Part shown: positions 1,288 to 46,469 of the stretch, one piece after another | Position numbering within the stretch: position 1 is the stretch's first letter | How the letters are laid out: the number at the start of each line of letters is the position of its first letter | NCBI GenBank assembly: GCA_947494675.1 | Contig: CANLVP010000002.1 | Location: 248,001 to 312,000, forward strand | Reading direction: 5' to 3' | Source: an uncultured Paracoccaceae bacterium | GTDB lineage: Bacteria > Pseudomonadota > Alphaproteobacteria > Rhodobacterales > Rhodobacteraceae | Length of the DNA: 64,000 nucleotides | Made by a program: the position numbers and the translations under genes | The notes under the pieces: generated by a model | The model's input: only the letters and a program-made list of their open reading frames with translations | Databases searched by the model: none | Told to the model about the DNA's origin: nothing

Positions 1288-2094
1288 TTAAGCCGCCAGA
1301 TCGACCCAGACGGGCACGTGATCGGAGGGTTTTTCGCGGCCCCTGACGGCGCTTTCGATCCAGCAGCTTTGCAGCAGATCGGCGCATTGTGGAGTCAGCA
1401 GAAAATGGTCGATGCGGATGCCGTCGTTGCGGTCCCATGCGCCAGCTTGGTAGTCCCAGAAGGAATAATGGCCGTCGCCAAAGGTCGTGGCGCGAAAAGC
1501 TTCTGTAAAACCAAGGTGTTGGATGCGGCGAAACGCTTCGCGCGAGGGCAGGCGGTGTAGGGCGTCTTTGGTCCAGGCGTCGGGGCGTTTGGCGTCTTCG
1601 GGCTGGGGAATGATGTTGTAATCACCCGCCATCAGGGCGGGCATCTCATCGGCCATAAGTGTCTGAGCACGTTGATATAATCTGTCCATCCAGCCCATCT
1701 TATAGGCGTATTTTCCGCCCTGGACGGGATTGCCGTCGCTGTCCAGTTCGACCGGGTTGCCGTTGGGCAGATAGAGGCCGCAAACACGCACCGGAATATC
1801 GCCCATCACGGTCGCTTCGATCCAGCGGGCTTGTTCGTCACTGTCGTCACCGGGGAGGCCACGAGTGACGTCTTCGAGCGGGATCTTGGACAGGATCGCG
1901 ACGCCGTTGAAGCCTTTTTGTCCATGGGTTTCAACGATATAGCCCATATCCTCAAGGTGCTGACGGGGGAAGTTCCCGTCGACCGATTTGATCTCTTGCA
2001 GCAGCGCCACATCCGGTTGGCTTTCGGTCAGCCAGTCGGTCAAAGCGCCGATCCGGGCCTTGATGCCGTTGATGTTGAATGTCGCGATCTTCAT
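1288..2094 (-). CDS. xthA: Exodeoxyribonuclease III (AP endonuclease)
   Basis: A 268-residue exonuclease III of the endonuclease/exonuclease/phosphatase fold, acting in base-excision repair at abasic sites and as a 3'-5' exonuclease. Family motifs appear in order: FNINGIKAR (Asn7), LLQEIKS with metal-binding Glu34, GDYNIIP, the YSFWDYQ stretch, RIDHFLLTP, and the terminal SDHVPVWVDL containing the catalytic Asp-His. Length matches the family. The ATG at 2094 gives the canonical MKIATFNINGIKAR start and has a purine-rich site (AGGGG) about 10 bases upstream. Longer in-frame extensions run into the upstream repeat-like intergenic sequence and were discarded. Confidence 0.95.
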   Translation of the reverse strand: MKIATFNINGIKARIGALTDWLTESQPDVALLQEIKSVDGNFPRQHLEDMGYIVETHGQKGFNGVAILSKIPLEDVTRGLPGDDSDEQARWIEATVMGDIPVRVCGLYLPNGNPVELDSDGNPVQGGKYAYKMGWMDRLYQRAQTLMADEMPALMAGDYNIIPQPEDAKRPDAWTKDALHRLPSREAFRRIQHLGFTEAFRATTFGDGHYSFWDYQAGAWDRNDGIRIDHFLLTPQCADLLQSCWIESAVRGREKPSDHVPVWVDLAA

Positions 2095-2128
2095 GAAGTC
2101 TAACCCCTGCGTTCGCCCGAATATCAAC

Positions 2129-2204
2129 GATGCAGAACCTATGCACAACCCGTATGGAAACCATACAGAACCCATGTGCATCGAAGTGTTAAAGTGGGTT
2201 AACC
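2129..2204. repeat. Intergenic repeat, copy 1 (degenerate AACCCATGCAC units)
   Basis: Between xthA and the Dabb gene lies a run of imperfect 10-11 base units, each close to AACCyATGCAC, framed by GATGCAG at the left and TTAA-rich sequence at the right (GTGTTAAAGTGGGTTAACCC). A closely similar arrangement is found at 33033-33077 after an unrelated gene, so this is an interspersed element rather than gene-specific sequence. There is no coding potential. Its role is unknown; an RNA-processing or protein-binding array is conceivable. Confidence 0.6.
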
Positions 2205-2501
2205 CTAAGCGAGATCGTAGACCTGCACGCGCGACCACAAGTCTTTGCACTGCGCGAGAAAGTCGTCGTGGTGCGGGCCGGTTTGATAGGCGTTGTGGGC
2301 GTCGAGGCTGTCGAAGGTGGCGACAAGGCCAAAGTCATAGCCATTCTCTACTACATCGCGGGCGGTGTTCGCAGGGCCACCGATGGTCGATTGGGTGACG
2401 CGCGGGTCCTTGACCAGATGCGCCAAGCCATCGGCAAAGCGACGGCGGTGATCGGCGTTGTCAGGGTCTTTGAGCCAGAAAAAGACAATATGGGTGTGCA
2501 A
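2205..2501 (-). CDS. Dabb-family (stress-response A/B barrel) protein
   Basis: A 98-residue protein of the dimeric alpha/beta barrel (Dabb, PF07876) type. It begins HTHIVFFWLKDP and ends with an aromatic-rich helix and 'WSRVQVYDLA', the usual outline of these small ligand- or haem-fold-like dimers. No initiating ATG exists. A TTG at 2501 is the likely start, because AGGAG lies 7 bases before it. The gene sits 52 bases downstream of the SRPBCC gene on the same strand and may be the last gene of the Tm-1-like operon. No specific reaction can be assigned. Confidence 0.8.
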   Translation of the reverse strand: MHTHIVFFWLKDPDNADHRRRFADGLAHLVKDPRVTQSTIGGPANTARDVVENGYDFGLVATFDSLDAHNAYQTGPHHDDFLAQCKDLWSRVQVYDLA

Positions 2502-2553
2502 GGGACACTCCTGTCAGAGCGGGAGGCGATCACGCGGATCGTTTCCCTGTGGT

Positions 2554-2994
2554 TTAGCCAAAGCTGGCTTCGAGCGCGCGGAAGCCGCCGATGAACACGT
2601 CGTCGGACACGAAGGCCTTCCACTTTGGTTCATCGCCATCGCCCGCCTCAAAATCGGCCCACCATTCGGCGAAAGTTTCATTCCTGTCGGTGATCGGCGT
2701 GAACTTCATCTTGGCGACGTAGTTGACAAAGGGCAGGGGCCCGCCAGGCAGCATGTCGTAGGTCAGGCTGCGGTCGGGGTTCGAAATGGCCAGCAGGGTT
2801 TCGCGGATGCGGCCACTGCCGTCGGTCAGGGCAAAGTTGCGCACGCAGCCAAGTTCGCCATTGTTGCGGCCCGGTTCGATTTTGCTGTCAGTGGCGGCGG
2901 GGTGCCAGTTGGGCAGCCCGTTGAAGTCGCGGACGCGGTCCCAGACCTGATCGACGGGGACGGCGATGATGGTGGAGGAATAGGCGTTGATCAT
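2554..2994 (-). CDS. SRPBCC-family (START/Bet v1-like) protein
   Basis: A 146-residue protein with the polyketide-cyclase/START-like layout: N-terminal strand 'AYSSTIIAVPVDQVWDRVRDFNGLPNWHP', then a central SGRIRETLLAISNPDRSLTY section and a C-terminal helix (GGFRALEASFG). Such proteins hold hydrophobic ligands in a deep pocket, and some are cyclases or dehydratases. The ATG at 2994 is 5 bases after the stop of the TIM-barrel gene, so the two are surely co-transcribed. It therefore probably belongs to the same pathway as the Tm-1-like proteins and the importer. A longer in-frame start at 3237 would lie inside the upstream gene and is unlikely. Confidence 0.85.
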   Translation of the reverse strand: MINAYSSTIIAVPVDQVWDRVRDFNGLPNWHPAATDSKIEPGRNNGELGCVRNFALTDGSGRIRETLLAISNPDRSLTYDMLPGGPLPFVNYVAKMKFTPITDRNETFAEWWADFEAGDGDEPKWKAFVSDDVFIGGFRALEASFG

Positions 2995-2999
2995 GGCGT

Positions 3000-3845
3000 C
3001 TATGCCTTTTGACCGCGGTTGAGATTGCCAAACGCTTTGACCTGCGCGGTGATCGCGCGTTCGGTCGGCAGACGTTCCATCGAGGATGCGCCGTAGAAAC
3101 CGTGGCAATCGGGGCAAAGGTCCATGAAGGCTTGCGCGTCTTCGGGTTCGGCCAGCGGGCCACCGTGGACAATGAAGAAGAGGTCGTCGCGCACCGCTTT
3201 GGCGGCGTCCGTCCATTCGCGATAGAGCCGGGCGCATTCGGGGATGTCAGGTGCAGTGTCATCCGCCCCGATGCTGCCGCCCGTGGTCAGGCCAAAGTGG
3301 GCCACGATCACGTCCGCACCAGCGCGGGCCATGTCGGCGGCGTTTTCGGCGCTGAAGACGTAAGGTGTTGTGAGCATGTCCTTTTGATGGGCCATGCCGA
3401 TCATCGCGACCTCTTGGTCATAGCGCATGCCTGTGGCCTCGCATTCCGCGCGGAAGCGGCCATCGATGAGGCCCATGGTGGGGAAGTTCTGCACCCCGGC
3501 GAACCCCATGGTTTTGAGGTCATCAAGGTGTTTGTCCATGATGCAAAAGGGGTCGGTGGCGTTGACGCCTGCCAGTACCGGGGTCTTTTCCACGACTGGC
3601 AGCACCTCGTAGCCGAGTTCCTTGGCAACCTCATTGGCGTTGCCGTAGGACATGTAGCCTGCCAGCGATCCGCGCCCGGCCATGCGGTATTTGCCGGAGT
3701 TGTAGATCACGATCATATCGGCGCCGCCCGCTTCTTCGCATTTGGCAGAGAGGCCGGTGCCGGCACCGCCGCCCACAAGCGAATGGCCTGCGTCGAGTTT
3801 GGCACGAAGATTGGCGAGGATGGTTTGGCGGTTCGTCTCGGGCAT
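3000..3845 (-). CDS. TIM-barrel signalling-domain protein ('phosphoenolpyruvate hydrolase family', PF09370)
   Basis: A 281-residue full-length TIM-barrel of the TIM-br_sig_trns family, often named phosphoenolpyruvate hydrolase family although no reaction is established. Visible landmarks are VGGGAGTGLSAK near residues 24-35, YNSGKYRMAGRGSLAGY (about 48-64), GVQNFPTMGLIDGRFR (about 117-132), AHFGLTTGGSIGADDT (about 185-200) and the terminal VHGGPLAEPED...YGASSMERLP. The same landmarks recur in the regulator at 10445-12181. The gene begins 12 bases after the UPF0261 gene. In tomato Tm-1 these two domains are fused in one polypeptide, so the adjacent genes are a split counterpart. Probably cytoplasmic; ligand unknown. 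Confidence 0.88.
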   Translation of the reverse strand: MPETNRQTILANLRAKLDAGHSLVGGGAGTGLSAKCEEAGGADMIVIYNSGKYRMAGRGSLAGYMSYGNANEVAKELGYEVLPVVEKTPVLAGVNATDPFCIMDKHLDDLKTMGFAGVQNFPTMGLIDGRFRAECEATGMRYDQEVAMIGMAHQKDMLTTPYVFSAENAADMARAGADVIVAHFGLTTGGSIGADDTAPDIPECARLYREWTDAAKAVRDDLFFIVHGGPLAEPEDAQAFMDLCPDCHGFYGASSMERLPTERAITAQVKAFGNLNRGQKA

Positions 3846-3857
3846 AGGCTTCGTTCC

Positions 3858-5051
3858 TTATGATTTGATGGCTTTGAATGCGGCAACGGCGGCTGCGGCG
3901 AATTCGGGGTCATTGATGTGCATGTCCAGCTCAACCAGCTTGCGCTTGTCGGTTTGCTGGACGGTGTCGCGGAGGGCGGAAAAGAGCGCCTCGTTTGCTG
4001 CCGGGTCCCAGAAGGGGCCGCCGTCGACATCAAGGGCAGAGACGCCTTTGAGCGGCAGCAAGAAACGGACGTCTCCGTCGCAGGTGTTGAGTTTGTTGCC
4101 GATCCACGCGCCGATTTTGGCGCATTCCTCTGGCGTGGTGCGCATGAGGGTGATCTGGGCGTTGTGGACGTAGAGGTTGCGGTCCTCAAACTGGGCGGGG
4201 ACAGTGTCGCGGGCCCAGAAGTTGACCATATCGAGCGCGCCGCAGGACCCCACGTAGGGGATTTTGCTGCGGGCGATGGCGTCAAAGCGGCCCTCATCCG
4301 CCGCCAGCACGCCGCCCACGATCATATCGCAAACCTCGGTCGTGGTGATGTCGAGCGCGCCTGAGATGCTGCCCTGATCGACCAACAGTTCCATTGCACG
4401 GCCACCGGTGCCGGTGGCGTGGAAGACGAGGCAGTCGTAATCGGCTTCAAGGTCGGCCACCATGGCCTGCACGGCGGCAGTGGTGACGCCGAACATGGAC
4501 ATCACCAGCGCCTCGCGGTCGTCGGCAGAGCCGGGCACGTTGTAGTTCATCATGCCAGCCAGCGCATGGGCGGCGTTGCCCAAGAGCTGCCGCGACACGC
4601 GGTTGAGGCCTTGGACGTCCGTGACAGGGTGGAACATGTTCACATCAGCAGCCCCGACAAAGGCAGAGACGTCGCCGGAGGCGAGGGTCGAGACCAGCAC
4701 CTTGGGGATGCCGATTTCGAGCGATTGCATGGCAGGCGCCACAAGGCTGGAGCCGCCGGAGCCGCCCATGGAGATGATCCCGCCCACGTCGTCGCGGCCC
4801 TGCATGAAGTTCAGCAGCGCGTCGGACATGGCCATGACGGCCTGTCCCCGGTCATTGACGAAGACGGCAGAGGGGCCATTGGGGTGGTTGGCGGCCACTT
4901 CGGCGGCGGTCACGTCAACGGGCGTGTCGCTGTCGCGGGTGCCGACGTTGACGAGCACGGTTTCAAGCCCGGTGCTGGCGATCAAGTCGCGGACAAAGAC
5001 AAGTTCCGGCCCCTTGGTATCAGCAGTGCCGACGATATATGCTTTCTTCAT
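3858..5051 (-). CDS. Tm-1-like ATP-binding domain protein (UPF0261)
   Basis: A 397-residue UPF0261/Tm-1-like protein. It opens with the family signature KKAYIVGTADTKGPELVFVRD, followed by a glycine-rich nucleotide-binding segment 'IISMGGSGGSSLVAPAMQ' near residues 92-109, then 'TGTGGRAMELLVDQG' and 'DITTTEVCDMIVGGVLAADEGR' in the second lobe. Members of this family bind ATP; the plant homologue Tm-1 blocks tomato mosaic virus RNA replication, but the bacterial role is unknown. Upstream of it are the genes of a LivFGMH-type importer on the same strand (16 bases from livF), and downstream the TIM-barrel gene. Assignment to the family is secure; function is open. Confidence 0.92.
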   Translation of the reverse strand: MKKAYIVGTADTKGPELVFVRDLIASTGLETVLVNVGTRDSDTPVDVTAAEVAANHPNGPSAVFVNDRGQAVMAMSDALLNFMQGRDDVGGIISMGGSGGSSLVAPAMQSLEIGIPKVLVSTLASGDVSAFVGAADVNMFHPVTDVQGLNRVSRQLLGNAAHALAGMMNYNVPGSADDREALVMSMFGVTTAAVQAMVADLEADYDCLVFHATGTGGRAMELLVDQGSISGALDITTTEVCDMIVGGVLAADEGRFDAIARSKIPYVGSCGALDMVNFWARDTVPAQFEDRNLYVHNAQITLMRTTPEECAKIGAWIGNKLNTCDGDVRFLLPLKGVSALDVDGGPFWDPAANEALFSALRDTVQQTDKRKLVELDMHINDPEFAAAAVAAFKAIKS

Positions 5052-5066
5052 GATTGACCCCTCCCG

Positions 5067-5783
5067 TTAATGTTTCGCGGCCTCGAGGCCGAGATGTTTC
5101 TTTTGCATGGCTGCGTCGTTTTCCAGTGTCGTGGCAGTGACCTGTTCGATGACCTCGCCGCCCACGACGATGGCGACGTCGTCAACGGCTGACAATGCGG
5201 CATGTAGGTTCTGTTCGACCAGCAGCACGGCGGTGCCTTCGCTGACCACCTGTTTGATCAGGTCGATCACGTCAGAGACGATGGCCGGGGCGAGCCCTTC
5301 GGTCGGTTCATCGAGCACCAGGACCTTTGGGTTGAGCAAGAGGGCGCGCGAGATCGCCAGCATTTGCTGTTCGCCGCCAGAGAGCCGGTCGCCGAGGTTG
5401 CGGCGGCGTTCCTTGAGGCGGGGGAAGGTGGCATAGACACGCTCAATGCTCCAGGCCGCCCCTTTGCGTTCAAGGATGCGCAGGTGTTCGTCGACGGTGA
5501 GTGAGCGAAAGATGCGGCGGCCTTGTGGCACATAGCCGAGGCCTGCTTGCGCGCGTTTTTCGGGCGGCAGTTTTGATAGGTCCTGATCGCCGAGCATGAT
5601 CTGGCCCGAGGTGATGGGGGCAAGCCCGAAGATCGCGTTGCAAATGCTGGTTTTGCCCACGCCGTTGCGGCCAAGGATGCCCAGAGGGCGGTCGCCAAGG
5701 TCGAGGCTGACATCGTGCAGCACGTGGCTTGAGCCGTAGTGCAGGTTTATGTCGCGCAGGCGCAGAAGCGGTTCAGTGGCCAT
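5067..5783 (-). CDS. LivF-type ABC transporter ATP-binding protein
   Basis: A 238-residue ATPase of the branched-chain amino acid/amide importer family (HAAT). Walker A is GRNGVGKTS, the LivF-like YVPQGRRIFRSLTV stretch follows, the ABC signature is LSGGEQQML, and Walker B is KVLVLDEPTEGL followed by the switch His region VLLVEQNLHAA. The ATG at 5783 overlaps the LivG gene by 11 bases. It supplies one half of the nucleotide-binding heterodimer for the importer encoded by 5773-9627. Because the operon continues into the Tm-1-like genes rather than amino acid metabolism, the substrate is probably not leucine. Confidence 0.93.
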   Translation of the reverse strand: MATEPLLRLRDINLHYGSSHVLHDVSLDLGDRPLGILGRNGVGKTSICNAIFGLAPITSGQIMLGDQDLSKLPPEKRAQAGLGYVPQGRRIFRSLTVDEHLRILERKGAAWSIERVYATFPRLKERRRNLGDRLSGGEQQMLAISRALLLNPKVLVLDEPTEGLAPAIVSDVIDLIKQVVSEGTAVLLVEQNLHAALSAVDDVAIVVGGEVIEQVTATTLENDAAMQKKHLGLEAAKH

Positions 5784-6549
5784 GCGCGCCCCCGACGTAG
5801 ATCTGGTGCACGTCCTTGTCGGCCATGACCTCATCCGGTGTGCCTTCGGCCATCAGTTCGCCATTGAAGAGGACCGTGACGCTTTCAGAGGTTTGAAAGG
5901 CGATGTCCATGTCGTGTTCGATCAGGATGACGGTGACCTCTTTGGGCAGCGACAACAGCAGCTTGCTGAGTTGCGGGCGTTCGGCGGGCGAGAGGCCAGC
6001 GGCGGGTTCATCAAGCAAGAGCACCTTGGGATCTTCGGCCAGCGCGATGCCGATTTCCAGCTGGCGGCGTTGGCCATGGCTGAGATCCGAGACCATGCGG
6101 TCAAGGAATTGCGTGATGCCTGCGACCTCGGCCAGACGCTCCGCCTCTGCCCGGCGGGGGTCGCTGAGGCGGACGGGCAGCACCTGCCGCCAGCCGCCGC
6201 GGATCCCGGCCACAGCCAGAAACAGCGTGTCGCGGACCGAGAGGCCGTCAAAGAGATAGGCGTGTTGATAGGTGCGGCGCAGGCCACGGTTGATCCGTTT
6301 GGGGATGGATTGTTTGGTCACATCCTCGCCAAACAGGCGGATTGATCCGGCAGAGGCTTTGTAGTCGCCGGTCAGAATATTAAACAGGCTGGTTTTCCCG
6401 GCACCATTGGGGCCGAGGATGGCGCGCCGTTCTCCGGGTTTGACGGAGAACGTCACGTCCTTGACGGCCCAGAAGCCGCCAAACCGTTTGCCAATGCCCT
6501 GTGTCTCAAGGGCATTGGCGGTTGTGTTATGCGCGTCGCTTAGGGGCAA
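5773..6549 (-). CDS. LivG-type ABC transporter ATP-binding protein
   Basis: A 258-residue ATPase pairing with the downstream LivF-type protein. It shows FGGFWAVKDVTFSV at the N-terminus, Walker A GPNGAGKTS, the LivG-typical RTYQHAYLFDGLSVRDTL, signature LSHGQRRQLEIGIAL and Walker B KVLLLDEPAAGLSP with the downstream VILIEHDMDIAF. No ATG is available in the first 20 codons; TTG at 6549 is the best start, overlapping the binding-protein stop by 10 bases, which suggests translational coupling. No strong ribosome site is visible, so the exact start is uncertain. Confidence 0.9.
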   Translation of the reverse strand: MPLSDAHNTTANALETQGIGKRFGGFWAVKDVTFSVKPGERRAILGPNGAGKTSLFNILTGDYKASAGSIRLFGEDVTKQSIPKRINRGLRRTYQHAYLFDGLSVRDTLFLAVAGIRGGWRQVLPVRLSDPRRAEAERLAEVAGITQFLDRMVSDLSHGQRRQLEIGIALAEDPKVLLLDEPAAGLSPAERPQLSKLLLSLPKEVTVILIEHDMDIAFQTSESVTVLFNGELMAEGTPDEVMADKDVHQIYVGGAHGH

Positions 6550-7778
6550 GATGGGTTGTCCCGGCTGACCGGACCTGCGGCGAGGAAGGTCTCAAGGTCC
6601 TGACCAAGGGTCTGGTTGACGTCCTTGACCACCTGAATGGCCCGTGTCCCCAAGGACCCGTCGTCAAGTTCGACCACTTCGATCACGAAGTTATCGACGA
6701 TGCCATTGCGGTTCTCATCCAGACGCATGGTGCCACCGGTTGGTTGGATGAATTCCAGATCATCCAGAACAGCGCGGAACGCAGCGCCGCCGTCTGACAG
6801 ATCGCCGCCGACAGCTTCAAGCCCCAGCATCGCGGCCTGTGCGCCCATGTAGTAGTGGTGCGCAAAGATCGACGGTGCACCGAGCCCATCTGGATAGGCC
6901 TCTGCATAGGCCGCAGCAAAGGCCACCCATTCGGGGCTATCGTAGTCGGACACAGTAGGAGTGCCTGCTGGTGCACCGATCAGCATGTCGCGGAACGATG
7001 CGTCGCTGGACAGCACCGTCTGGTCGATGGTGATCGAGCCGCCGATGATTGGCGTGCTGAACCCGGCTTGCTGATACTGTGTCAGGAAGCTAACGGCGTC
7101 AGAGCCGCCCAAGGCCACAAAGATCGCGTCAACATCCTGTGGGATCGAATAGACCACGGATGAATAGTCAGCGTTGCCGATGGGGGTCCAGAACTTCTCT
7201 GGCACGGTGCCGCCTGCCGCGCAGAATTCAGACATGAAGCCCAGAACCTGCGTGTAGGGGAAGGAATAGTCTTCCGCCACAACGGCGACCTTTTCATAGC
7301 CCAGCGTGTCATGGGCATAGGTGCCAACACCGGCCATCCATTGTGCGCCGTCACCGCCAAAGCGATAAAAGTTCGGGGATGGATCACGCAGCGTGGTATC
7401 CTGTGCACCCGAAGAGCCGTTGATGATGGTCACATCCGGGTAGGACCGCGACAGATCGCGCAGGGCCAGACCTTCGGAGCCCGAAAGTGGGCCAACGATG
7501 ATCTTTGCGCCGTCCTGTTCGATCAGGCGACGTGCGGCTGCGACTGCGCTGTCGGGGCTTGCGTCGGATGAGACAACGACAAGGTTGATCTCATTCCCGG
7601 CGACAGAGCCGCCGGCGTCGGCCACGGCCATTTCAACGCCGCGGATGCCGTCCTGACCCAGCGCCGCAAACGCGCCTTCCAGGATCGAGATAACGCCGAT
7701 GGTGATTTCCTCGGATGAGGCGGGCATTGCCGCTGCACTGAGCGCAATTGCAGATACCGCTATTTTGAGATGCTTCAT
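6540..7778 (-). CDS. LivK-type periplasmic substrate-binding protein
   Basis: A 412-residue periplasmic binding protein of the type I fold (Peripla_BP_6). A signal peptide (MKHLKIAVSAIALSAAAMPASS) is followed by EEITIGVISILEGAFAALGQDGIRGVEMAV, the usual first lobe of amide/amino acid receptors. GGAG lies 7-8 bases before the ATG. Ligand preference cannot be read, but this protein sets what the whole cluster takes up. It precedes the two ATPase genes and follows the permease genes, an unusual but not rare order within the importer operon. Confidence 0.92.
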   Translation of the reverse strand: MKHLKIAVSAIALSAAAMPASSEEITIGVISILEGAFAALGQDGIRGVEMAVADAGGSVAGNEINLVVVSSDASPDSAVAAARRLIEQDGAKIIVGPLSGSEGLALRDLSRSYPDVTIINGSSGAQDTTLRDPSPNFYRFGGDGAQWMAGVGTYAHDTLGYEKVAVVAEDYSFPYTQVLGFMSEFCAAGGTVPEKFWTPIGNADYSSVVYSIPQDVDAIFVALGGSDAVSFLTQYQQAGFSTPIIGGSITIDQTVLSSDASFRDMLIGAPAGTPTVSDYDSPEWVAFAAAYAEAYPDGLGAPSIFAHHYYMGAQAAMLGLEAVGGDLSDGGAAFRAVLDDLEFIQPTGGTMRLDENRNGIVDNFVIEVVELDDGSLGTRAIQVVKDVNQTLGQDLETFLAAGPVSRDNPSCP

Positions 7779-7798
7779 GATTTCCTCCCATTAAAGTC

Positions 7799-8764
7799 TC
7801 AAGTGGTTCTTGATTTTGCTGCGCCTCCACGCAGCTTTTTCGCCCCATCAGTGATCAGTTGCGTCAGCCCGTTGGGGGCGGCCACAATGATCAGCAACAA
7901 GACAATTCCGATAAGCAGGTTGAAACGATCGCGATCGATCAGATCGATCGCAAAGATGTCGAGAACGACATAGACGATGGCCCCGACAAAGGCCCCGGTG
8001 GGGTGGCGCAGGCCACCGATGACGCTGATGATCAGGATGTCGATGATCGGGCCAAAGCCCACAGAAAAGCTGGAGACCCGTTCCTGAAACCAGACGTTCA
8101 GGATGCCACCGCTGCCCGCGATGAGACCCGAAAAGGCAAATGCGGCGACGATGGGCAGGGTGGTCGGGATGCCAAGGGCCAGCAGGCGGCCCGGCGCGTC
8201 GCGCACCGCTTGCACCGCAAGGCCAAGGGGCGAGCGCACGAAGCCTTGGACCAGACCCACGCAGATGGCGGCCACGATAAGCGATAAGAAATAAAGCGGC
8301 TTGGGATCGCCCCAGTTGCCCTCGCCCAAAGCAGGCGCGATCACGCCGGAAAAGCCGGTAAAGCCGTTGAACAGCACGTAGTTCTGGCGGGTGAAGTAGA
8401 AGAACGCCACGCCAATCGCCAAGGTGATCATGATGGCGTAGATCCCGCGCGAGCGGCGGGCGATATAGCCCATCATCGCACCTGCGGCCATGGCGAGGAT
8501 CAGCGCCAGCGGGATCGTCACGATCAGGGGCAGGGGGACGCCCACACCCACGGTATTTGGCCCGAAGTAGGCGATGGCATAGCCTGCGACCCCGGCAAGG
8601 GTCACTTGGGCAAATGAGACAACGCCAAGGTAGGTTGCCAGAAAGCTGAGGCTGAGCGCGATGGTGCCCATGATGAGCGCGCGGGTCAGGACTTGGCTGA
8701 GCCAAAAGTCATTGAGCACCAGCGGCAAGAGCGCCATGGGGATGAGGATCAGCAAATACTTCAT
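7799..8764 (-). CDS. LivM-type ABC transporter permease
   Basis: A 321-residue integral membrane permease with about nine hydrophobic segments. It contains the LivM-type 'LSLSFLATYLGVVSFAQVTLAGVAGYAIAYF' region and the cytoplasmic coupling stretch SPLGLAVQAVRDAPGRLLALGI near residue 200. The ATG at 8764 overlaps the LivH stop in an ATGA arrangement. Codons upstream of this start are antisense-like arginine-rich sequence and not part of the protein. It forms the transmembrane heterodimer with the LivH-type protein. Confidence 0.92.
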   Translation of the reverse strand: MKYLLILIPMALLPLVLNDFWLSQVLTRALIMGTIALSLSFLATYLGVVSFAQVTLAGVAGYAIAYFGPNTVGVGVPLPLIVTIPLALILAMAAGAMMGYIARRSRGIYAIMITLAIGVAFFYFTRQNYVLFNGFTGFSGVIAPALGEGNWGDPKPLYFLSLIVAAICVGLVQGFVRSPLGLAVQAVRDAPGRLLALGIPTTLPIVAAFAFSGLIAGSGGILNVWFQERVSSFSVGFGPIIDILIISVIGGLRHPTGAFVGAIVYVVLDIFAIDLIDRDRFNLLIGIVLLLIIVAAPNGLTQLITDGAKKLRGGAAKSRTT

Positions 8765-9627
8765 TTCTCGGACCGTCCCAGCAGGCCTTGCGGACGGACG
8801 GCGAGCACGAAGACCATAATCACAAAGGTGACGACGGCGGCATAGGTGGGCGCATAGGCCAGCCCGTATTGCTCGGCCAAGCCAATCAGTAGGGCGCCAA
8901 GGGCGGCTCCGCCGACGGACCCCATGCCGCCCACGATCACCACAACGAGGGACGACAACAGGAATTGCAGATCGGTGCCCGGTGCGATGGACAGGGCAGA
9001 GCCTGCGATGACGCCCGCCATGCCCGCCAGCATCCCGCCCATGGCGAAGACCAGAATGAAGATTTTGTTGATCGGGTAGCCCAAGGCGCGCAGCATTTGC
9101 TGATCGTCTACGCCTGCGCGGATCACCGCCCCGATGCGGGTTTTCTGGATAAAGAGCCAAAGGGCCACGCCCACCACAAGGGCAAAGATCATCAGTGATA
9201 TGCGGACCTTGGCATAGCCGATCCCCAGCATTTCCAGTCGGACACCACCCGAGAGCCAGTCAGGCGTGCGCACCTGATAGGTGTTGCCGCCCCAGATCCA
9301 GAGCATCAGATCAGCCAGAATGATCGAGATCGCGATGGAGGCGAGCGTCTGCCGCAGCTCATCGCCCTGCATCCAGCCCAGCACACCGATTTGCACCATG
9401 GCACCTGCAAGGGCCGCCGCAAGACCGCCCGCCAGAACGCCCAAGGCCCAAAGCCCTGTGGCATCGGCCACGGACCAACCGACATAGCCGCCCAGCAGCA
9501 GCAAAGCCCCATGCGCCATGTTGACGGTGCGCATCAGGCCAAAGATCAGGCTAAAGCCGCTGGCTGCAAGAAAGTAGAGTGCAGCAAGCGTGAGCCCGTT
9601 GAGCGTCACGACGAAGAATAGTGTCAT
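8761..9627 (-). CDS. LivH-type ABC transporter permease
   Basis: A 288-residue permease, the first gene of the leftward operon. It shows the LivH hallmarks 'LTLAALYFLAASGFSLIFGLMRTVNMAHGALLLLGGYV' at the N-terminus and a coupling stretch TRIGAVIRAGVDDQQMLRALGY about residue 165-185. GGAGG lies shortly before the ATG at 9627. The promoter must lie in the 176-base divergent region shared with the TIM-barrel/regulator pair, so the regulator at 10445-12181 is the natural candidate to control it. Confidence 0.93.
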   Translation of the reverse strand: MTLFFVVTLNGLTLAALYFLAASGFSLIFGLMRTVNMAHGALLLLGGYVGWSVADATGLWALGVLAGGLAAALAGAMVQIGVLGWMQGDELRQTLASIAISIILADLMLWIWGGNTYQVRTPDWLSGGVRLEMLGIGYAKVRISLMIFALVVGVALWLFIQKTRIGAVIRAGVDDQQMLRALGYPINKIFILVFAMGGMLAGMAGVIAGSALSIAPGTDLQFLLSSLVVVIVGGMGSVGGAALGALLIGLAEQYGLAYAPTYAAVVTFVIMVFVLAVRPQGLLGRSEK

Positions 9628-9713
9628 TGGTCCTCCCGTCGGTCACAGTTGCGGCTGCGGCAGAACGGCGCACGTCAAAATGCGGAATGGGGTGGTGGAA
9701 AAATATGCAATGA

Positions 9714-9741
9714 AAACAGGTTGTTGGGAATTTTCCTGTTT
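9714..9741. promoter_or_regulatory. Inverted repeat in the divergent promoter region (AAACAGG-N14-CCTGTTT)
   Basis: Perfect 7-base arms AAACAGG (9714-9720) and CCTGTTT (9735-9741) flank a 14-base spacer containing GGAATTTTCC. The element lies between livH (start 9627) and the barrel gene (start 9804). Two-turn spacing of the half-sites suits a dimeric Fis-type helix-turn-helix such as that of the neighbouring regulator. Inferred operator; no binding data. Confidence 0.4.
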
Positions 9742-9751
9742 CTATGGGTGA

Positions 9752-9777
9752 CATATTTCGGAATATGTTTCCGAAAT
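9752..9777. promoter_or_regulatory. Overlapping palindromes, probable operator of the Tm-1-like locus
   Basis: Two perfect inverted repeats overlap here. One is ATTTCGGAA-TATGT-TTCCGAAAT (9755-9777), with 9-base arms. The other is CATATT-TCGG-AATATG (9752-9767), with 6-base arms. They sit 27 bases before the ATG of the barrel gene, where a bound protein would block or assist transcription. No -24/-12 sigma-54 promoter is visible on either strand of this region, in line with the regulator's missing GAFTGA loop. Confidence 0.5.
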
Positions 9778-9803
9778 TTGCCGATTCTTGCTACGCTCGC
9801 GGG

Positions 9804-10448
9804 ATGAGTTCTTTGACCCTTGGCGGTGGGATTCCGTCAGCCGACCGGCAGATGCCGCATATCTATTGTCCCAGCCTCCGTGGCCTGTCGGTGCGGGTGG
9901 CGGATGCGGCGTTTCTGATGCCGCGGATCGATCACAATCAGACTGTGAAGGATGCCAAAGGGTGCGGGCATTGGGCCTCGACCATTGCGGCAGATCCCTT
10001 TGGGTCCAACAGCGCCTATTTCACGGCCCTAGTGGCGGCAGGTTATGTCGGTGTGGTGAATTGGCCGTCGTCGATTTTGCTGGAAGGGCAGACGCGGCAG
10101 CAGATGTCGACGATCCCGGCCACGCCGGACACCGAATACCGGTATTTGGCCAATGCGCAGGACTTTGGGTTGTCCACGCTAGGATTCATCCTGACGCCGG
10201 ATCATGCGGCTGCGGCGCTGAAGTTGGGGCTGCGCAACCTTGTGCTGCATCCGGGGCTGTTGCTGGATGTTGACGCGGCGGGCGTGTCGATGATCCGTGG
10301 GGCGCTGTCGTCGATTGTCGCCAATGTCAAAGCGATGGAGCCGACGGCGACCGTGCGGCTTTATACCTCTGATTGGCACGAGAGCATTTTGGGCCTGTCG
10401 GATGTGACCTGCGATGGGTTGGTGTGTTTTGAGGCGGCGCGGCCATGA
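9804..10448 (+). CDS. Shortened TIM-barrel signalling-domain protein (PF09370-like)
   Basis: A 214-residue divergent relative of the 281-residue barrel at 3000-3845. Matching landmarks are AADPF...ALVAAGYVGVVNWPSSILLEGQTR (compare NATDPF...GVQNFPTMGLIDGRFR), then a 'TLGFILTPDHAAAALKLGLRNLVLHPG' section and the C-terminal 'DGLVCFEAARP'. The N-terminal part holding the NSGKYR motif of the full-length barrels is absent or unrecognisable, so it may not be an active enzyme. Its stop overlaps the regulator start (ATGA), so the two products are made together and may interact. An in-frame ATG at 9744 would place the palindromes inside the gene; 9804 is preferred, though neither has a strong ribosome site. 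Confidence 0.7.
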   Translation: MSSLTLGGGIPSADRQMPHIYCPSLRGLSVRVADAAFLMPRIDHNQTVKDAKGCGHWASTIAADPFGSNSAYFTALVAAGYVGVVNWPSSILLEGQTRQQMSTIPATPDTEYRYLANAQDFGLSTLGFILTPDHAAAALKLGLRNLVLHPGLLLDVDAAGVSMIRGALSSIVANVKAMEPTATVRLYTSDWHESILGLSDVTCDGLVCFEAARP

Positions 10449-12181
10449 TGCCCAAGGCGAACCGTTTTCTATTTGGGGCCGTGGTCGGGTCCGGCATGAC
10501 CGCGCAGGTCGCGGACCGGTCGGGCGCAGATTACCTATTGGTCTTGAACGCGGGCCGTTTTCGGGTGCAGGGGGCGTCGTCGCTGGCGTGTTTTCTCCCC
10601 GTGAGGGACGCCAACAAATGGGTCTTTGAATTCGCAGAGCGGGAGATTTTGGGGCGGGTTAAAGCGCCCCTGTTTGCGGGGCTGAGCGTGTCGGACCCTT
10701 GCATTGATCTGGACCGGCTGGTGGGTGAGGTCCGCGATCTGGGGTTTCGCGGCGTATGCAATTTTCCGTCCAACGCGCTGGTTGAGGGGCGTATTCACCG
10801 GATGCTGGAGGCCGAGGGGCTGGGCTACGGGCGCGAGATTGAAATGGTGCGGCGGGCCAGGAAGGCGGGGCTTGATGCGCTGGTCTATGTGGCGACGAAC
10901 GCGCAGGCCCACGCGATGCTGGACGCCGGGGCCACGACAATTTGCGTGAACATGGGCTTTACCAGTGGTCCAACGGGTGTCGATACGGACCTCAGCATGA
11001 CCTCTGCTGCGCAGATGATCGATCAGGTGCTGGACGGTTTGCCGGAAAAGATGCCGACGCTTTGTGCGGGCGGGCCGATCATCACGCCCGAGGACGCGAT
11101 GGCGGTGTGGCGGACGTCCAAGGTGCAGGGCTATATAACCGGATCGTCGTTGGACCGGCTGCCGATTGAACAGACGCTGGAAGACGTGGCCAGCGGGTTT
11201 CGCGTGATCTCTCGCCTGACGCAGGCGCAGAATTCGGATGATGATCCAAGCCTGCGGCTGGTCGGGTCGTCGGCGCAGATTGCCGCGCTGAACCGCGACA
11301 TCGAAGAATTGGCGAAGGAACAAGCGCCGGTGCTGATCCTTGGGGAAACGGGAACTGGCAAGACCAAAGCGGCGCGGCTGTTGCACGAGCTTTCGCCACA
11401 TAAACGCCAGCGGCTGTCGATCATTGATTGCCCAGGGTTGGATTCCGAAACCGGGCGTATTCAGCTGATGGGGGCGACGGGTGGTGCCTTGAAAGCAGGC
11501 GTGGCGAGCACGCGCGGCGCGCTTGAGGCGGCCGCACGCGGGACGGTTCTATTTGAGGGGGTCGATGCCTTGGATGCAGAGCATCAGGGAAAGATCCTGC
11601 GCTTTGCCGAGGATGGCACGGTCCAGCGGCTTGGCGATCCAGAGGTGCGGCGTATCTCAGCCCATATAGTCGCCACGGCTGGCCCGACTTTGCTGGATGA
11701 TGTGGCGGCCAAGCGGTTTCGGGCCGATCTTTATTACCGTTTGGCAGTGCATCAGCTATCTATTCCGCCGCTCCGGGACCGGATTGAGGACCTGCCGGAA
11801 CTTGTGAGCTTTATCGCCAATAGCCTGACCCGGGGGGAGGGCGCGCGGTTCGCAAACTCTGCCCTCAAGACCATGATGGATTATGCTTGGCCGGGAAATG
11901 TGCGGGAATTGCAGAACGTAGTGGCGCAGGCGATCCGCAAGGCCGCGGGCAAGACGATCACGCGCAACGATCTGGCGTTTTATCATGTGCCAATGGCGCA
12001 GCCCGGCACTGGTCCTGCGCCGGTTCAGGCGCCCGCACCGGATGCACCCAAGACCGAGCGGGAGTGGATATCAGCGGCCCTTGCCCGTCATGGCTGGCGA
12101 CGGGCGGAGGCCGCAGGCGAATTGGGAATGTCCACGCGGACGCTGTTCAACAAGATCAAGAAATACGGGCTGGACGCCTGA
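10445..12181 (+). CDS. NtrC-like regulator with a TIM-barrel sensor domain and no GAFTGA motif
   Basis: A 578-residue three-part regulator. Residues 1-255 are a TIM_br_sig_trns barrel (NAGRFRVQGASSLACF, GVCNFPSNALVEGRIHR, CAGGPIITPED, TGSSLDRLP). Residues 270-510 are an AAA+ module with Walker A GETGTGKT (300-307), arginine-finger region RFRADLYYRL and WPGNVRELQ. Residues 540-578 are a Fis-type helix-turn-helix (RRAEAAGELGMSTRTLFNKIKKYGL). The sigma-54-contacting GAFTGA is replaced by GALKAG (347-352), and Walker B reads LFEGVD rather than LFLDEI. It therefore probably acts without sigma-54, as a repressor or sigma-70 regulator, with the barrel sensing the ligand handled by the divergent operon. 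Confidence 0.9.
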   Translation: MMPKANRFLFGAVVGSGMTAQVADRSGADYLLVLNAGRFRVQGASSLACFLPVRDANKWVFEFAEREILGRVKAPLFAGLSVSDPCIDLDRLVGEVRDLGFRGVCNFPSNALVEGRIHRMLEAEGLGYGREIEMVRRARKAGLDALVYVATNAQAHAMLDAGATTICVNMGFTSGPTGVDTDLSMTSAAQMIDQVLDGLPEKMPTLCAGGPIITPEDAMAVWRTSKVQGYITGSSLDRLPIEQTLEDVASGFRVISRLTQAQNSDDDPSLRLVGSSAQIAALNRDIEELAKEQAPVLILGETGTGKTKAARLLHELSPHKRQRLSIIDCPGLDSETGRIQLMGATGGALKAGVASTRGALEAAARGTVLFEGVDALDAEHQGKILRFAEDGTVQRLGDPEVRRISAHIVATAGPTLLDDVAAKRFRADLYYRLAVHQLSIPPLRDRIEDLPELVSFIANSLTRGEGARFANSALKTMMDYAWPGNVRELQNVVAQAIRKAAGKTITRNDLAFYHVPMAQPGTGPAPVQAPAPDAPKTEREWISAALARHGWRRAEAAGELGMSTRTLFNKIKKYGLDA

Positions 12182-12183
12182 TC

Positions 12184-12510
12184 CTACATCGAGAACGACG
12201 TGCCGCAGCCGCAAGATGAGGTGGCGTTGGGGTTGTTGATGACAAAGCGCGCGCCAATCAGCTCTTCGGTAAAGTCAATCTCGGCCTCGGTCAGGAAGGG
12301 CAGGGAGACGCTGTCGATCACGACCTTTTCGCCGGCACCTTCAAGCACGAGATCATCGTCCTTCACATCATCAAGGTCGATTTCATACTGAAAGCCCGAA
12401 CAGCCGCCGCCTTCAACCGCGACGCGCAGGGCCTTGCCTTGGTCGGCGGCACCGATCTCAGACAAACGCTCGAACGCGCGGGCTGTGACTTTGGGGGGAA
12501 GGGTCAGCAT
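12184..12510 (-). CDS. erpA: Iron-sulfur cluster insertion protein (HesB/IscA family, ErpA-like)
   Basis: A 108-residue A-type carrier with the three conserved cysteines: Cys37 in GGGCSGF and Cys100/Cys102 in the terminal SCGCGTSF. The TARAFERLSEI N-terminus and the FVINNPNATSSCGCG ending fit ErpA better than SufA, but the subfamily is not certain. It delivers Fe-S clusters to apo-proteins in the cytoplasm. It ends 2 bases after the regulator stop (convergent) and is divergent from dgt, an arrangement common in this order. Confidence 0.9.
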   Translation of the reverse strand: MLTLPPKVTARAFERLSEIGAADQGKALRVAVEGGGCSGFQYEIDLDDVKDDDLVLEGAGEKVVIDSVSLPFLTEAEIDFTEELIGARFVINNPNATSSCGCGTSFSM

Positions 12511-12583
12511 GATGGAACCTATCGGAGTGGGTATGGTTCAGATATAGAGGCCCCAGGCAAAGACGACAAGACAGGGCAGGGAC

Positions 12584-13756
12584 ATGGCAGCCCCATATGC
12601 AACCGATCCCGCGCAGGCGCGGGGGCGGCTTTATGCGGAAGAAGAGAGCAACTTTCGCTCTCCGTTTCAGCGTGACCGCGACCGGATCATTCATGCGAGC
12701 GCGTTTCGACGGCTGAAGCATAAGACGCAGGTGTTTATTGAGCACGAGGGCGACTATTTTCGCACGCGCCTGACCCATTCGATTGAGGTGGCGCAGGTGG
12801 CCCGTACCGTCGCGGCGGCGCTGGACCTCAACGTGGAGCTGACCGAGGCCGTGGCGCTGGCCCATGATCTGGGGCACACGCCCTTTGGTCATACGGGCGA
12901 AGAGGCTTTGGATCGGTTGATGCAGCCTTATGGTGGGTTTGATCACAACGCGCAGGCCTTGCGGATCGTGACCGATCTGGAACGGCATTATGCGGAATGG
13001 GATGGGCTGAACCTGACGTGGGAGACGCTGGAAGGCATTGCCAAGCATAATGGTCCGGTGACGGGTGATGTGCCTTGGGCGCTGACCGCTTACAATAATC
13101 GCCACGATCTGGAGCTGCACACCCATGCCAGCGCCGAGGCGCAGGTGGCGGCCCTGGCCGACGATATCGCCTATAACAATCACGATCTGCATGATGGGTT
13201 GCGGGCAGAGCTTTTTAGCACCGATGAATTGGCCGAGATGCCGATCTTGCGGGATTGTTTTGTCGAAGTGGACGCCCGCTATCCGGGGCTGAATTATTAC
13301 CGGCGGCGGCATGAGGCCTTGCGACGGTTCTTTGGGGTTTTGGTCGAGGATGTGATTGTTGTCAGTCGTCGCAATCTGGCAGAGCTGAACCCTGGTTCTG
13401 TGGCGGATATTCGTCATGCGGGGCGAATGGTGGTGCAGTTCACCCCGGCCTTGTGGGAAGACCTCAAGGTGATCCGCAAGTTCCTGTTTGAGCGGATGTA
13501 TCGCGCCCCCGCCGTGGTGAAAATGCGGGTGGCTGTGACCCATATGGTTGATGAGCTTTTTCCGTTTTTCATCTACAATTCCAATGAGTTGCCCAAGCAG
13601 TGGCGCAAGGATGTGGCCGAGGCGCGGGATGAACAGGCGCTGGCGCGGATCGTGGCCGATTACATTGCAGGCATGACCGACAGGTTTGCCATTCAGGAAC
13701 ATGCGCGCCTGATTGGCGGCACCCCCGTCCCGGCAGGAGTAACCGATGGCGATTGA
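12584..13756 (+). CDS. dgt: Deoxyguanosinetriphosphate triphosphohydrolase-like dNTPase
   Basis: A 390-residue HD-domain dNTP triphosphohydrolase of the type 2 (shorter) family that splits dNTPs into nucleoside and triphosphate. Metal ligands are His65 (RLTHSIEVAQVAR), His94-Asp95 in ALAHDLGHTPFGHTGE, and a downstream Asp in ALADDIAYNNHD. The N-terminal 'FRSPFQRDRDRIIHASAFRRLKHKTQVF' is characteristic. The gene overlaps the antiporter gene by 11 bases, so the two are co-transcribed. Its role is nucleotide pool control. Confidence 0.93.
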   Translation: MAAPYATDPAQARGRLYAEEESNFRSPFQRDRDRIIHASAFRRLKHKTQVFIEHEGDYFRTRLTHSIEVAQVARTVAAALDLNVELTEAVALAHDLGHTPFGHTGEEALDRLMQPYGGFDHNAQALRIVTDLERHYAEWDGLNLTWETLEGIAKHNGPVTGDVPWALTAYNNRHDLELHTHASAEAQVAALADDIAYNNHDLHDGLRAELFSTDELAEMPILRDCFVEVDARYPGLNYYRRRHEALRRFFGVLVEDVIVVSRRNLAELNPGSVADIRHAGRMVVQFTPALWEDLKVIRKFLFERMYRAPAVVKMRVAVTHMVDELFPFFIYNSNELPKQWRKDVAEARDEQALARIVADYIAGMTDRFAIQEHARLIGGTPVPAGVTDGD

Positions 13757-25182: not shown

Positions 25183-25259
25183 TGGTCGGGCTAGCAGGAC
25201 TCGAACCTGCGACCTTCCGTCCCCCAGACGGACGCGCTACCAGGCTGCGCTATAGCCCG
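25183..25259 (-). tRNA. tRNA-Pro (anticodon GGG)
   Basis: A 77-base cloverleaf read on the minus strand. The acceptor stem is CGGGCTA/TAGCCCG, the D-arm contains CCTGGTA, the anticodon stem is TCCGT/ACGGA with loop CTGGGGG giving anticodon GGG, and the T-arm is GCAGG-TTCGAGT-CCTGC. Discriminator A and CCA are encoded. All stems pair perfectly. Confidence 0.97.
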
Positions 25260-45273: not shown

Positions 45274-46469
45274 CAGCCGTTGATATTTGCCGAAGAGCGC
45301 AGCTCTTCCAGCAGCGCATTTGCGAGACCCGCCAGACGTTGGCTGCGCAGCTGTTCGGCCACGGCTGTGCGGTCGCCGGTGTCTTCGCTGGATTGACGGT
45401 TACACAGCATCAGGAAAACGATGTTGTTGCCACGGGTCACGTTGTAGCTGACCTCACCCCGGTCGAGACGGGCCAGCTCAAGCGCGATGTCTTGCGGAAT
45501 CTCAGAAGGGGCGCGTTCGTTGCGTTCCAGGACTTCGGGGGCTTGGCCCTGCGCGGCACCGTAAAGGTCGTCACAGACATCAACGTCCAGTGCCAGGCGG
45601 GCCGCTGCGGCGCGGCCTGCATCGGTGCCCGCGCCGGGGATGTAGTAGGCTGCATATTCAATGGAGGTTGGTGCACTCGGCGCTGAGGCAACCTCGCGCA
45701 CGCCGCGCATTTGGAAGAGGGCGACGCCGCCCGTGATGCCGATGGGGGCGGTGACTTCACCCGGGGACAGACCCAGCAAGAGGCCCTGCAGTTGGGGCGG
45801 GTAGTTTGAGATTGGCAACCAGCCCAAGCGTCCGCCATTGTTGCGTGATGGCAGCGCAGAGTGTTGCCGGGCAAAGCTGGAAAACTGCGCCTCGGACGTG
45901 GTTTGCGCAATCTGGCTGGCCAGCGCGTTGGCGCGGGCCGCCTGTGGTGGTGGCGCGGGGATGATGATTTCGGACAAGAGCACCTCAATCCCGTCCGCGC
46001 CAGCACCGGACTGGCCCAACGCGCGGTCGATGTCAGCGGCGGTGATGGTGACGGAATTGCCATAGCGGGACCGGATATAGTCGCGCCAGCTGACGCCCAT
46101 GCGCACGAATTCCTCGAGCGTTTCATAGGCAACGCCATTTTGCGCAAGGATCGTCGTGAATTGCTCAGCCGTCAGATTTGCGCGGCCTGCAAAGGCCTCA
46201 ACCTCATTGGCGAGCGCTTCTGGCGTGATTGACAGGCCCGCGCGGTCCAGCGCGATCTGCTTGAGCCGGTCGTCGATCAATTGCTCGCGGGCCAGTTCGT
46301 CCAGATTGCCCGGCGTGCGGAATAGCTCCAGCAGCTTGCGGCGCTGTTCCAGTTCAAAGACCGTGACCACCTTGTTGTCGACCGTGATCGCGGGCGAAAA
46401 GTTCTGGGCAGAAGCGATGGCCGCAGGCAGGGCCAGCAGGATCGAAAGCAAGAGGGGTGCAAGGCGCAT
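45273..46469 (-). CDS. surA: Periplasmic chaperone/peptidyl-prolyl isomerase SurA
   Basis: A 398-residue periplasmic chaperone for outer-membrane proteins. Signal peptide MRLAPLLLSILLALPAAIASA, then the SurA N-domain (ITVDNKVVTVFELEQRRKLLELF ... LIDDRLKQIALDRAGLSITPEALANEVEAFA), then a parvulin-like domain (VLLSEIIIP ... FARQHSALPSRNNGGRLGWLPISNYPPQLQG). The parvulin active site may be degenerate, as in many SurA domains. It sits just after lptD, one of its main clients. Confidence 0.94.
   Translation of the reverse strand: MRLAPLLLSILLALPAAIASAQNFSPAITVDNKVVTVFELEQRRKLLELFRTPGNLDELAREQLIDDRLKQIALDRAGLSITPEALANEVEAFAGRANLTAEQFTTILAQNGVAYETLEEFVRMGVSWRDYIRSRYGNSVTITAADIDRALGQSGAGADGIEVLLSEIIIPAPPPQAARANALASQIAQTTSEAQFSSFARQHSALPSRNNGGRLGWLPISNYPPQLQGLLLGLSPGEVTAPIGITGGVALFQMRGVREVASAPSAPTSIEYAAYYIPGAGTDAGRAAAARLALDVDVCDDLYGAAQGQAPEVLERNERAPSEIPQDIALELARLDRGEVSYNVTRGNNIVFLMLCNRQSSEDTGDRTAVAEQLRSQRLAGLANALLEELRSSANING

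Follow-up and report, generated by a model that had tools for sequence, protein, structure and literature searches.

The locus described here raises the question of what proteins of the UPF0261 family, and the triosephosphate isomerase (TIM)-barrel proteins of family PF09370 that are encoded beside them, do in bacteria; in the tomato virus-resistance protein Tm-1 (PDB entries 3wrw, 3wrx and 3wry) the two are fused in a single plant protein with antiviral activity (PMC5028733). The locus lies within a stretch of 64,000 nucleotides, hereafter the window, from an uncultured Paracoccaceae bacterium (assembly GCA_947494675.1, contig CANLVP010000002.1, positions 248,001 to 312,000). It comprises eleven genes, ten of which are confirmed by Pfam and the eleventh by NCBIfam, and these genes constitute a real, conserved and mobile module. 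We place at about 0.5 the probability that this is a transplantable catabolic module, in which a small molecule is imported and phosphorylated and a barrel enzyme performs the following step, under a regulator that senses a phosphorylated compound. If this is true, the everyday job of the relatives of Tm-1 becomes a testable enzyme reaction.

Gene content and unit behaviour of the locus

Nine genes are read on the reverse strand from 9627 to 2205 in the order livH-livM-livK-livG-livF-UPF0261-barrel-SRPBCC-Dabb, and they are divergent from two forward-strand genes, for a second barrel protein (TBST2) and for a regulator with barrel, AAA and HTH_8 domains, which extend to 12181 (Table 1; gene starts were adjusted with a codon-usage caller). 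An earlier note, made by a model from the letters alone, had described the same arrangement, and Pfam and NCBIfam bear it out. Neighbouring genes on the reverse strand overlap or are separated by 5–71 bp, and a pattern scan of positions 2000–12600 found no terminator-like site on this strand, all seven sites being on the forward strand. The LivKHMGF set is complete (two BPD_transp_2 permeases, two ATP-binding cassette (ABC) ATPases and one Peripla_BP protein), the UPF0261 domains are matched at full length (190.4 and 302.7 bits against cut-offs of 27), and the barrel at 3000–3845 is a full-length match to PF09370 (392.7 bits against a cut-off of 33.8, covering profile positions 2–266 of 267). 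The same gene order is present in the related loci L007, L046, L048–L050 and L052, and also in L051, where two gene pairs are merged or mis-called.

The ends that the earlier note gave to the locus, 2205 and 12181, are the ends of a block that is missing in the five other genomes of a genus sample of six. In BLAST comparisons (L197–L202) these genomes match the window up to positions 2137–2203 and again from 12184–12186, and the homology break points therefore identify these coordinates as the ends of a transplantable module. Within the genus, the gap between xth and erpA (2180–12184 in the window) is a hot spot for insertions: it is empty in two genomes (G405 and G406, where the genes are 0.79 kb apart), it contains other inserts in two (G1059 and G1060), and it is rearranged in one (G1058), where about 450 kb separates the two flanks and neither adjoins any trace of the block. 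UPF0261 was found in none of G405, G406 and G1058, and G1059 and G1060 carry one each, on another contig, with scores that fall among those of the barrel-less type; no barrel was found in G405 or G406, the search in G1058–G1060 covering only the fetched stretches. At its site the block is either complete or missing, and it thus behaves as one unit. The flanking genes of the window, viz. xth, erpA and dgt, are found in 0/20 comparison loci (18 distinct, as L138 and L152 repeat L052 and L046).

With 61.5% G+C, compared with 58.9% and 60.4% in the DNA on either side, the block does not have the composition of foreign DNA. An island or transposon linked to an integrase or a tRNA was rejected as an explanation: Pfam and NCBIfam identify no integrase or transposase among the genes of the block, the approximately 130 bp at each block end share no 8–18-mer as a terminal repeat, and no tRNA is located at the ends, the sole tRNA found being at 25183. 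The insert of G1059 at the same site (L199:2968–11634) consists of one gene for a protein of 2783 amino acids with cadherin/RTX repeats, and its left edge bears a partial erpA-like copy with a stop, perhaps the scar of a duplication.

Table 1. Features of the locus, in window coordinates.
Feature	Position	Strand	Evidence and remarks
Dabb alpha/beta-barrel protein	2205..2501	-	PF07876 7.2e-18; accessory
SRPBCC (Polyketide_cyc2) protein	2554..2994	-	PF10604 9.2e-24; core third partner, cupin in other loci
TIM-barrel enzyme (TBST / 'PEP hydrolase-like')	3000..3845	-	PF09370 8.8e-118; strands 7 and 8 each followed by a putative phosphate loop
UPF0261 protein, predicted ATP-dependent small-molecule kinase	3858..5051	-	PF06792 3.6e-56, PF23189 1.5e-90; matches 3wry 5.9e-89, 9mpy 8e-49
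LivF-type ABC ATPase	5067..5783	-	ABC_tran 6.2e-27; own gene here, UPF0261-fused in relatives
LivG-type ABC ATPase	5773..6549	-	ABC ATPase by NCBIfam; UrtD/LivG-like matches under their cut-offs
LivK-type periplasmic solute-binding protein	6540..7727	-	PF13458 (Peripla_BP_6) 2.2e-51; PDB kin 4zpj 3.8e-42, 4evq 2.8e-21
LivM-type permease	7799..8764	-	PF02653 (BPD_transp_2) 7.9e-27
LivH-type permease	8761..9627	-	PF02653 (BPD_transp_2) 2.7e-36
Candidate operator, TCGGMAA half-sites, 10-bp period, inverted copies	9757..9784		Conserved in orthologues; 9768-9784 also by pattern
Degenerate barrel protein TBST2, putative regulator partner	9804..10448	+	PF09370 3.3e-12; phosphate loops not recognisable; probable start
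Regulator: barrel + sigma54-type AAA + HTH_8	10445..12181	+	2.2e-70 / 1.4e-34 / 5.5e-13; lacks GAFTGA, putative catalytic residues lost
Whole block, absent from the xth-erpA site of five other genomes of the genus	2204..12184		BLAST homology breaks

Gene neighbourhoods of UPF0261 and the barrel

The association of these genes was surveyed in 341 genomes of the order, of which 138 contain UPF0261 and 26 contain a PF09370 barrel above the cut-off (G655, at 23 bits, is below it and was excluded). Stretches of 20 kb from the 26 barrel-bearing genomes were scanned by tblastn, with 20 arbitrary stretches from 20 of these genomes as controls; the counts rest on tblastn because the gene caller put opposite-strand frames in some loci (e.g., L143, L146, L150, and L158). 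UPF0261 is present in all 26 genomes, and in 25 of them it is on the same strand as the barrel and within 3 kb of it, G422 being the exception. A clear ABC importer is found in the same 20 kb in 24/26 (LivH+LivM+LivK+LivG+LivF in 18, a strong MalFGK-like set in 6), L151 having a weaker MalFGK-like set and L159 no clear importer; the controls contain LivH/M/K in 0/20 and MalF+UgpC in 2/20. An SRPBCC protein (18 genomes) or a cupin (8 genomes, three of them weak at 46–65 bits) is encoded within 5 kb of UPF0261 in all 26 and in none of the control stretches. Dabb is accessory and not part of the core of the module, being found in 0/25 other stretches of the order and, among the 20 comparison loci, in L047 only. 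Similar results were obtained for the named loci, the best 80 of 295 fetched by UPF0261 similarity (the counts omit L001–L005, because of overlap with the window or with its genome, and L129, which overlaps L128): 79/80 have the barrel and, of the 72 that are at least 12 kb long, 68 have one of the two importer types and 46 the MalFGK-like set.

UPF0261 without a barrel above the cut-off is common in the order (112/138 genomes). Fourteen such regions (L163–L176) include eight with Tct transporter genes and IclR, aminotransferase or aldehyde dehydrogenase neighbours, two (L171 and L175) that adjoin a MalFGK-like importer, one (L173) of a kind considered below, and three (L170, L172, and L174) that differ. 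The second UPF0261 of the present genome (G000:C3:703799–704329; L011:9782–11023) belongs to another clade and has no barrel, and it adjoins a Tct tripartite transporter, an aldehyde dehydrogenase, an IclR regulator and a class-III aminotransferase.

Several loci from further afield were also observed. An Ensifer plasmid (L135) has a third importer type (BMP-family ABC) ahead of UPF0261-barrel-SRPBCC, and importer swapping therefore extends past two types. A Halopiger plasmid (L131, from a haloarchaeon) carries a compact barrel-cupin-UPF0261 trio, with no importer annotated in its 25-kb stretch, which suggests that this trio is the core. An Azospirillum argentinense plasmid (L128, L129) carries a barrel regulator, a degenerate barrel, UPF0261, a barrel and SRPBCC, and genes for a xanthine-dehydrogenase-type hydroxylase, an amidase, HpxZ and DUF1116 are found close by, a neighbourhood hinting at the degradation of N-heterocycles.

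Importer and enzyme are also linked by a gene fusion. LivF and UPF0261 share one stop-free frame, of 731–762 residues, in 12/26 genomes; at L034:8859–11156 an ABC ATPase domain is joined to UPF0261, and another fusion is located at L066:8963–11218. A flotillin-like gene is present in the stretch in 12/12 fusion genomes and 0/14 others of the order sample. The fusion loci examined are found in an aromatic or heteroaromatic degradation setting, with an SRPBCC-quinone reductase in L033, an amidohydrolase in L034 together with hydrolases of FAH type and PcaD-like kind, a hydroxylase of the xanthine-dehydrogenase/4-hydroxybenzoyl-CoA-reductase family in L142, and a Rieske oxygenase in L149. In the window, the importer is a five-part system of the LivKHMGF family, but its subunits (LivM was not in this comparison) fall below the curated cut-offs for the named urea and branched-chain amino acid systems, from which the fusion of LivF to UPF0261 in its relatives also sets it apart. 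The PDB kin of its LivK include 4evq, 4evs and 4f06, which we take to bind aromatic acids.

The proposal of the earlier note that these genes form one system is thus upheld, by the presence or absence of the block as a unit, the adjacency of the pair, the importers in excess of the controls, the fusions, and the regulator barrels found near enzyme barrels (see below). Its details fared less evenly: the importer does co-occur with the pair, but its type is swapped and the partner is not fixed; SRPBCC or a cupin holds as a helper but Dabb does not; and the neighbourhood link that it proposed to test in the Rhodobacterales applies to the barrel-bearing genomes but not to UPF0261 generally.

Predicted functions of the enzymes and the regulator

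A Foldseek search with the model of the window UPF0261 (predicted local distance difference test score (pLDDT) 89.7) returned Tm-1 first and then PDB entry 9MPY (E 2.7e-36, a whole-length fold match), the title of which names Saro_1862, a UPF0261 domain protein of Novosphingobium aromaticivorans, with bound acetovanillone. Acetovanillone catabolism in this organism is reported to begin with MarK, a single-component kinase (PMC13101465, 2026, citing Hall et al., 2025), and from organism and ligand we infer that MarK is Saro_1862. The statement in the earlier note that bacterial relatives of Tm-1 have no known function is therefore out of date. The UPF0261 nearest to 9MPY in our set (53% identical) is from the same order as the window, in L173 (2576–11571), where it adjoins genes for BCCP, biotin carboxylase, carboxyltransferase, a HAD phosphatase and acetoacetate-CoA ligase. 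The Hpe pathway is described with the same layout, except that the HpeHI kinase stands where L173 has UPF0261 (PMC9618137), and this gene set provides independent support for a kinase role of MarK-type UPF0261. HpeHI and AcvAB resemble our proposal in that a phenolic substrate is phosphorylated as the first catabolic step, but they are two-component ATP-grasp/swivel dikinases unrelated to UPF0261 (PMC9618137; PMC12167813), and an HpeHI-like origin of UPF0261 was rejected for this reason. Pfam and NCBIfam identify none of the carboxylase, phosphatase and beta-keto-acid genes of the Hpe/Acv pathway among the genes of the block.

An alignment of 155 UPF0261 rows (153 distinct, with the same result; stretches under 300 residues were left out) has 43 core columns that are conserved in at least 93% of rows. 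The window protein keeps all 43, Tm-1 keeps 42 and 9MPY keeps 37, and nineteen polar core residues are identical in the three. In a tree of these rows, thinned to 103 at 80% identity, Tm-1, the window clade and the LivF fusions form one set of 67 rows with a Shimodaira-Hasegawa-like approximate likelihood ratio test (SH-aLRT) value of 100. Of this set, 57 rows are labelled as barrel-linked and 9 are not, Tm-1 being unlabelled; other searches found a barrel for six of the nine (L040, L053, L058, L064, L144, and L151), and the remainder are L140 (the split case, G422), L089 (a 4-kb contig) and L026. The Tct-linked paralogues and 9MPY lie outside this set, 9MPY grouping with L173 (SH-aLRT 100).

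The barrel at 3000–3845 is 57% identical to Mll9387 (2p10) and has the same motifs; the function of that protein, 'putative phosphonopyruvate hydrolase', is a label of its depositors. Other folds among the Foldseek matches listed are members of the PEP-mutase/isocitrate-lyase group, ManNAc-6-P epimerase, TIM, TrpA, and TrpC. The model (mean pLDDT 79.8) places a GGP motif after strand 7 and a GASS motif after strand 8, the positions where phosphate-handling TIM barrels hold phosphate in their loops. Eighteen enzyme barrels share 108 invariant positions, K35, E37, and H183 among them. The enzyme barrel is thus predicted to grip the phosphate of its product, and with a kinase adjoining such a barrel a two-step reading is natural.

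The regulator carries a further copy of this barrel. Of the 108 invariant positions of the enzyme barrels, 35 are kept in at least 80% of the regulator barrels. In 17 distinct regulators (of 19 first counted) the putative phosphate loops are retained (G228-G229-P230 and S254 in 17/17, R258 in 16/17) and K35 (kept in 1/17), E37 (0/17) and H183 (0/17) are lost, so the regulator barrel is probably a sensor of the phosphorylated intermediate. TBST2 shows the reverse pattern, with D98, N120, and H183 kept in 9/9 distinct sequences (of 11 first counted) and the phosphate loops lost, in an alignment that is less sure. Regulator-size barrel frames are located within 9 kb of an enzyme barrel in 6/6 cases in the order sample, and the phylum sample adds three within 11 kb (that of G753 identified by frame length only).

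The AAA core of the regulator has the Walker A motif GETGTGK and is followed by HTH_8, and GAFTGA is missing in 17/17 distinct barrel-AAA regulators. No -24/-12 site (TGGCAC-N5-TTGCW, with at most one mismatch) is present between the divergent units, the sole match in the window being at 46447, against 4.0 expected by chance. Control of the operon by sigma-54 was rejected on both grounds, and an ordinary sigma factor is therefore likelier. Among NtrC-type regulators, VpsR, TyrR, and Rhodobacter capsulatus NtrC also lack GAFTGA, and the window regulator resembles VpsR and TyrR in its AAA domain without the sigma-54 contact motif and its Fis-type HTH; it is unlike them in its sensor, an enzyme-like barrel that belongs to the family used in the pathway itself. 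The older name of the barrel family, 'TIM-barrel signal transduction', suggests that barrel-regulator fusions had been noticed before.

The two transcription units are separated by TCGGMAA repeats, a candidate operator. TCGGMAA occurs 147–169 bp upstream of livH in 8/8 orthologues, and a looser motif, picked by eye from the same sequences, is matched 21 times, compared with 2.8 times on average and never more than 9 times in 500 shuffles. For TBST2, a start at 9804 is more likely than one at 9744, since the conserved repeats occupy approximately 9757–9784 and the counterpart in L046 starts at the matching residue. A genome-wide TCGGMAA regulon was rejected for want of enrichment, and a match at C3:701624, near the second UPF0261, is a probable coincidence.

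Proposed pathway, its alternatives and Tm-1

We propose that a small molecule would enter through the LivHMKGF-type importer. It is most likely an aromatic or heteroaromatic compound with a hydroxyl group, and UPF0261 would phosphorylate it with ATP, as MarK reportedly does with acetovanillone (PMC13101465). The PF09370 barrel would grip the phosphate of the product with its GGP and GASS loops and perform the next step, for which a lyase, hydrolase or isomerase step would fit the fold, and the small SRPBCC protein (a cupin elsewhere) would assist. The regulator, through its barrel copy without K35, E37, and H183, would probably sense the phosphorylated intermediate and, together with TBST2, would act at the TCGGMAA repeats via an ordinary sigma factor.

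Several observations weigh against this proposal. The window UPF0261 is approximately 30% identical to 9MPY and falls in a separate clade from the MarK type, so that its kinase activity and its taste for aromatics are extrapolated, and the link of MarK to Saro_1862 is itself inferential. The block has no gene for a ring-opening enzyme, and relatives with MalFGK-like importers adjoin genes of sugar-acid type; the class of the substrate is therefore not fixed. The strand-8 loop of the barrel is poorly modelled (pLDDT of about 54 for residues 251–260), a profile search of the PDB found, apart from 2p10, no sequence relative that convinces but only weak, chance-like matches, and the fold kin leave the reaction of the barrel unfixed. 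MalF+UgpC in the two control stretches is about as strong as in L151. The paired TCGGMAA motif, chosen after looking, is not enriched genome-wide (13 matches against 12 for a reversed control).

Some of these points lend themselves to other explanations. The same logic of import, phosphorylation and barrel step could serve a sugar acid, a polyol or another aliphatic hydroxy compound, as the sugar-type MalFGK-like importers of the 46 named loci mentioned above (class C) would suggest, together with the annotated R. lentis locus (an MR/MLE enzyme, a sugar-phosphate isomerase, an NAD(P)-dependent oxidoreductase, a cupin, and a Xaa-Pro-peptidase-type gene), an oxidoreductase of the 2-hydroxyacid dehydrogenase kind in L072 and, in L135, a four-carbon acid sugar kinase close by. 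We regard this as unlikely, although less so than the other alternatives, since the LivK-type importer of the window has its homologues in loci that encode Rieske, xanthine-dehydrogenase-type and PcaD-like enzymes, and acetovanillone is the only small-molecule ligand named among the UPF0261 structure titles found. It is also doubtful that UPF0261 of this clade is no kinase at all, having kept the fold of MarK while its reaction diverged, and spends ATP on another step (adenylation, ligation or ATP-driven hydrolysis) that the barrel completes. The low identity to 9MPY and the separate clades would fit such a divergence, as would the lack of a barrel in L173, the one MarK-type locus examined, and of any above the cut-off in its genome, G626, but the nineteen shared polar core residues and the phosphate-type loops of both the barrel partner and the regulator argue for a kinase.

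That the barrels are signal-transduction domains of a signalling or stress system, to which the importer is incidental, appears very unlikely. A barrel is indeed fused to the regulator here, one barrel protein is degenerate, and the plant fusion protein inhibits a virus (PMC5028733), but the enzyme barrel keeps its 108 invariant positions, including the three residues lost in the sensor copies, the importer co-occurs far above the controls, and the fusion loci contain ring-modifying enzymes. Least credible of all is a chance neighbourhood, in which importer genes and Tm-1-like genes are separate units carried together; UPF0261 without a barrel is common in the order, as this would allow, but the LivF-UPF0261 fusion, the importer counts against the controls and the maintenance of the module beside other flanks all speak for a single unit.

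Two elements of the proposed catabolic module were known earlier, viz. the partnership of UPF0261 with the barrel, for which 97.4% co-occurrence in bacteria and correlated evolution have been reported (Yang, 2016; PMC5028733), so that the pairing put forward in the earlier note is not new, and the kinase activity reported for one branch of UPF0261 (PMC13101465). The open-licence literature searched, in which none of the searches targeted the fusion or the regulator by name, yielded no description of how the module is laid out, of the LivF fusion, of the enzyme-derived sensor or of the link to Tm-1. Overall, the interpretation in the earlier note is partly supported: the single system stands, and the claims about function, a fixed importer, Dabb, generality and the novelty of the pair do not. 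Two designs here are unusual, namely the fusion of LivF to UPF0261 and the re-use of the pathway's barrel as the sensor of a regulator.

The MarK kinase report and the neighbourhood data together provide a concrete, assayable hypothesis for the bacterial function, which bears equally on the original function of Tm-1, a classical virus-resistance gene. MarK (as 9MPY) and the window UPF0261 are alike in whole-length fold and 37/43 core residues, but they differ in identity and clade, and the related L173 locus has carboxylase and phosphatase genes and no PF09370 barrel. Tm-1 is closer to the window protein (44.5% identity, against 29.7% to 9MPY), although its exact place in the tree is unsure because it forms a long branch of odd composition. 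We tentatively suggest, as possible rather than probable, that the bacterial ancestor of Tm-1 was the catalytic core of a swappable import-phosphorylate-sense module for phenolic-type compounds, with a catalytically dead barrel copy in the AAA regulator as reader of the phospho-intermediate, that the plant protein itself may be a small-molecule kinase-barrel enzyme, and that viral resistance may be a late side job.

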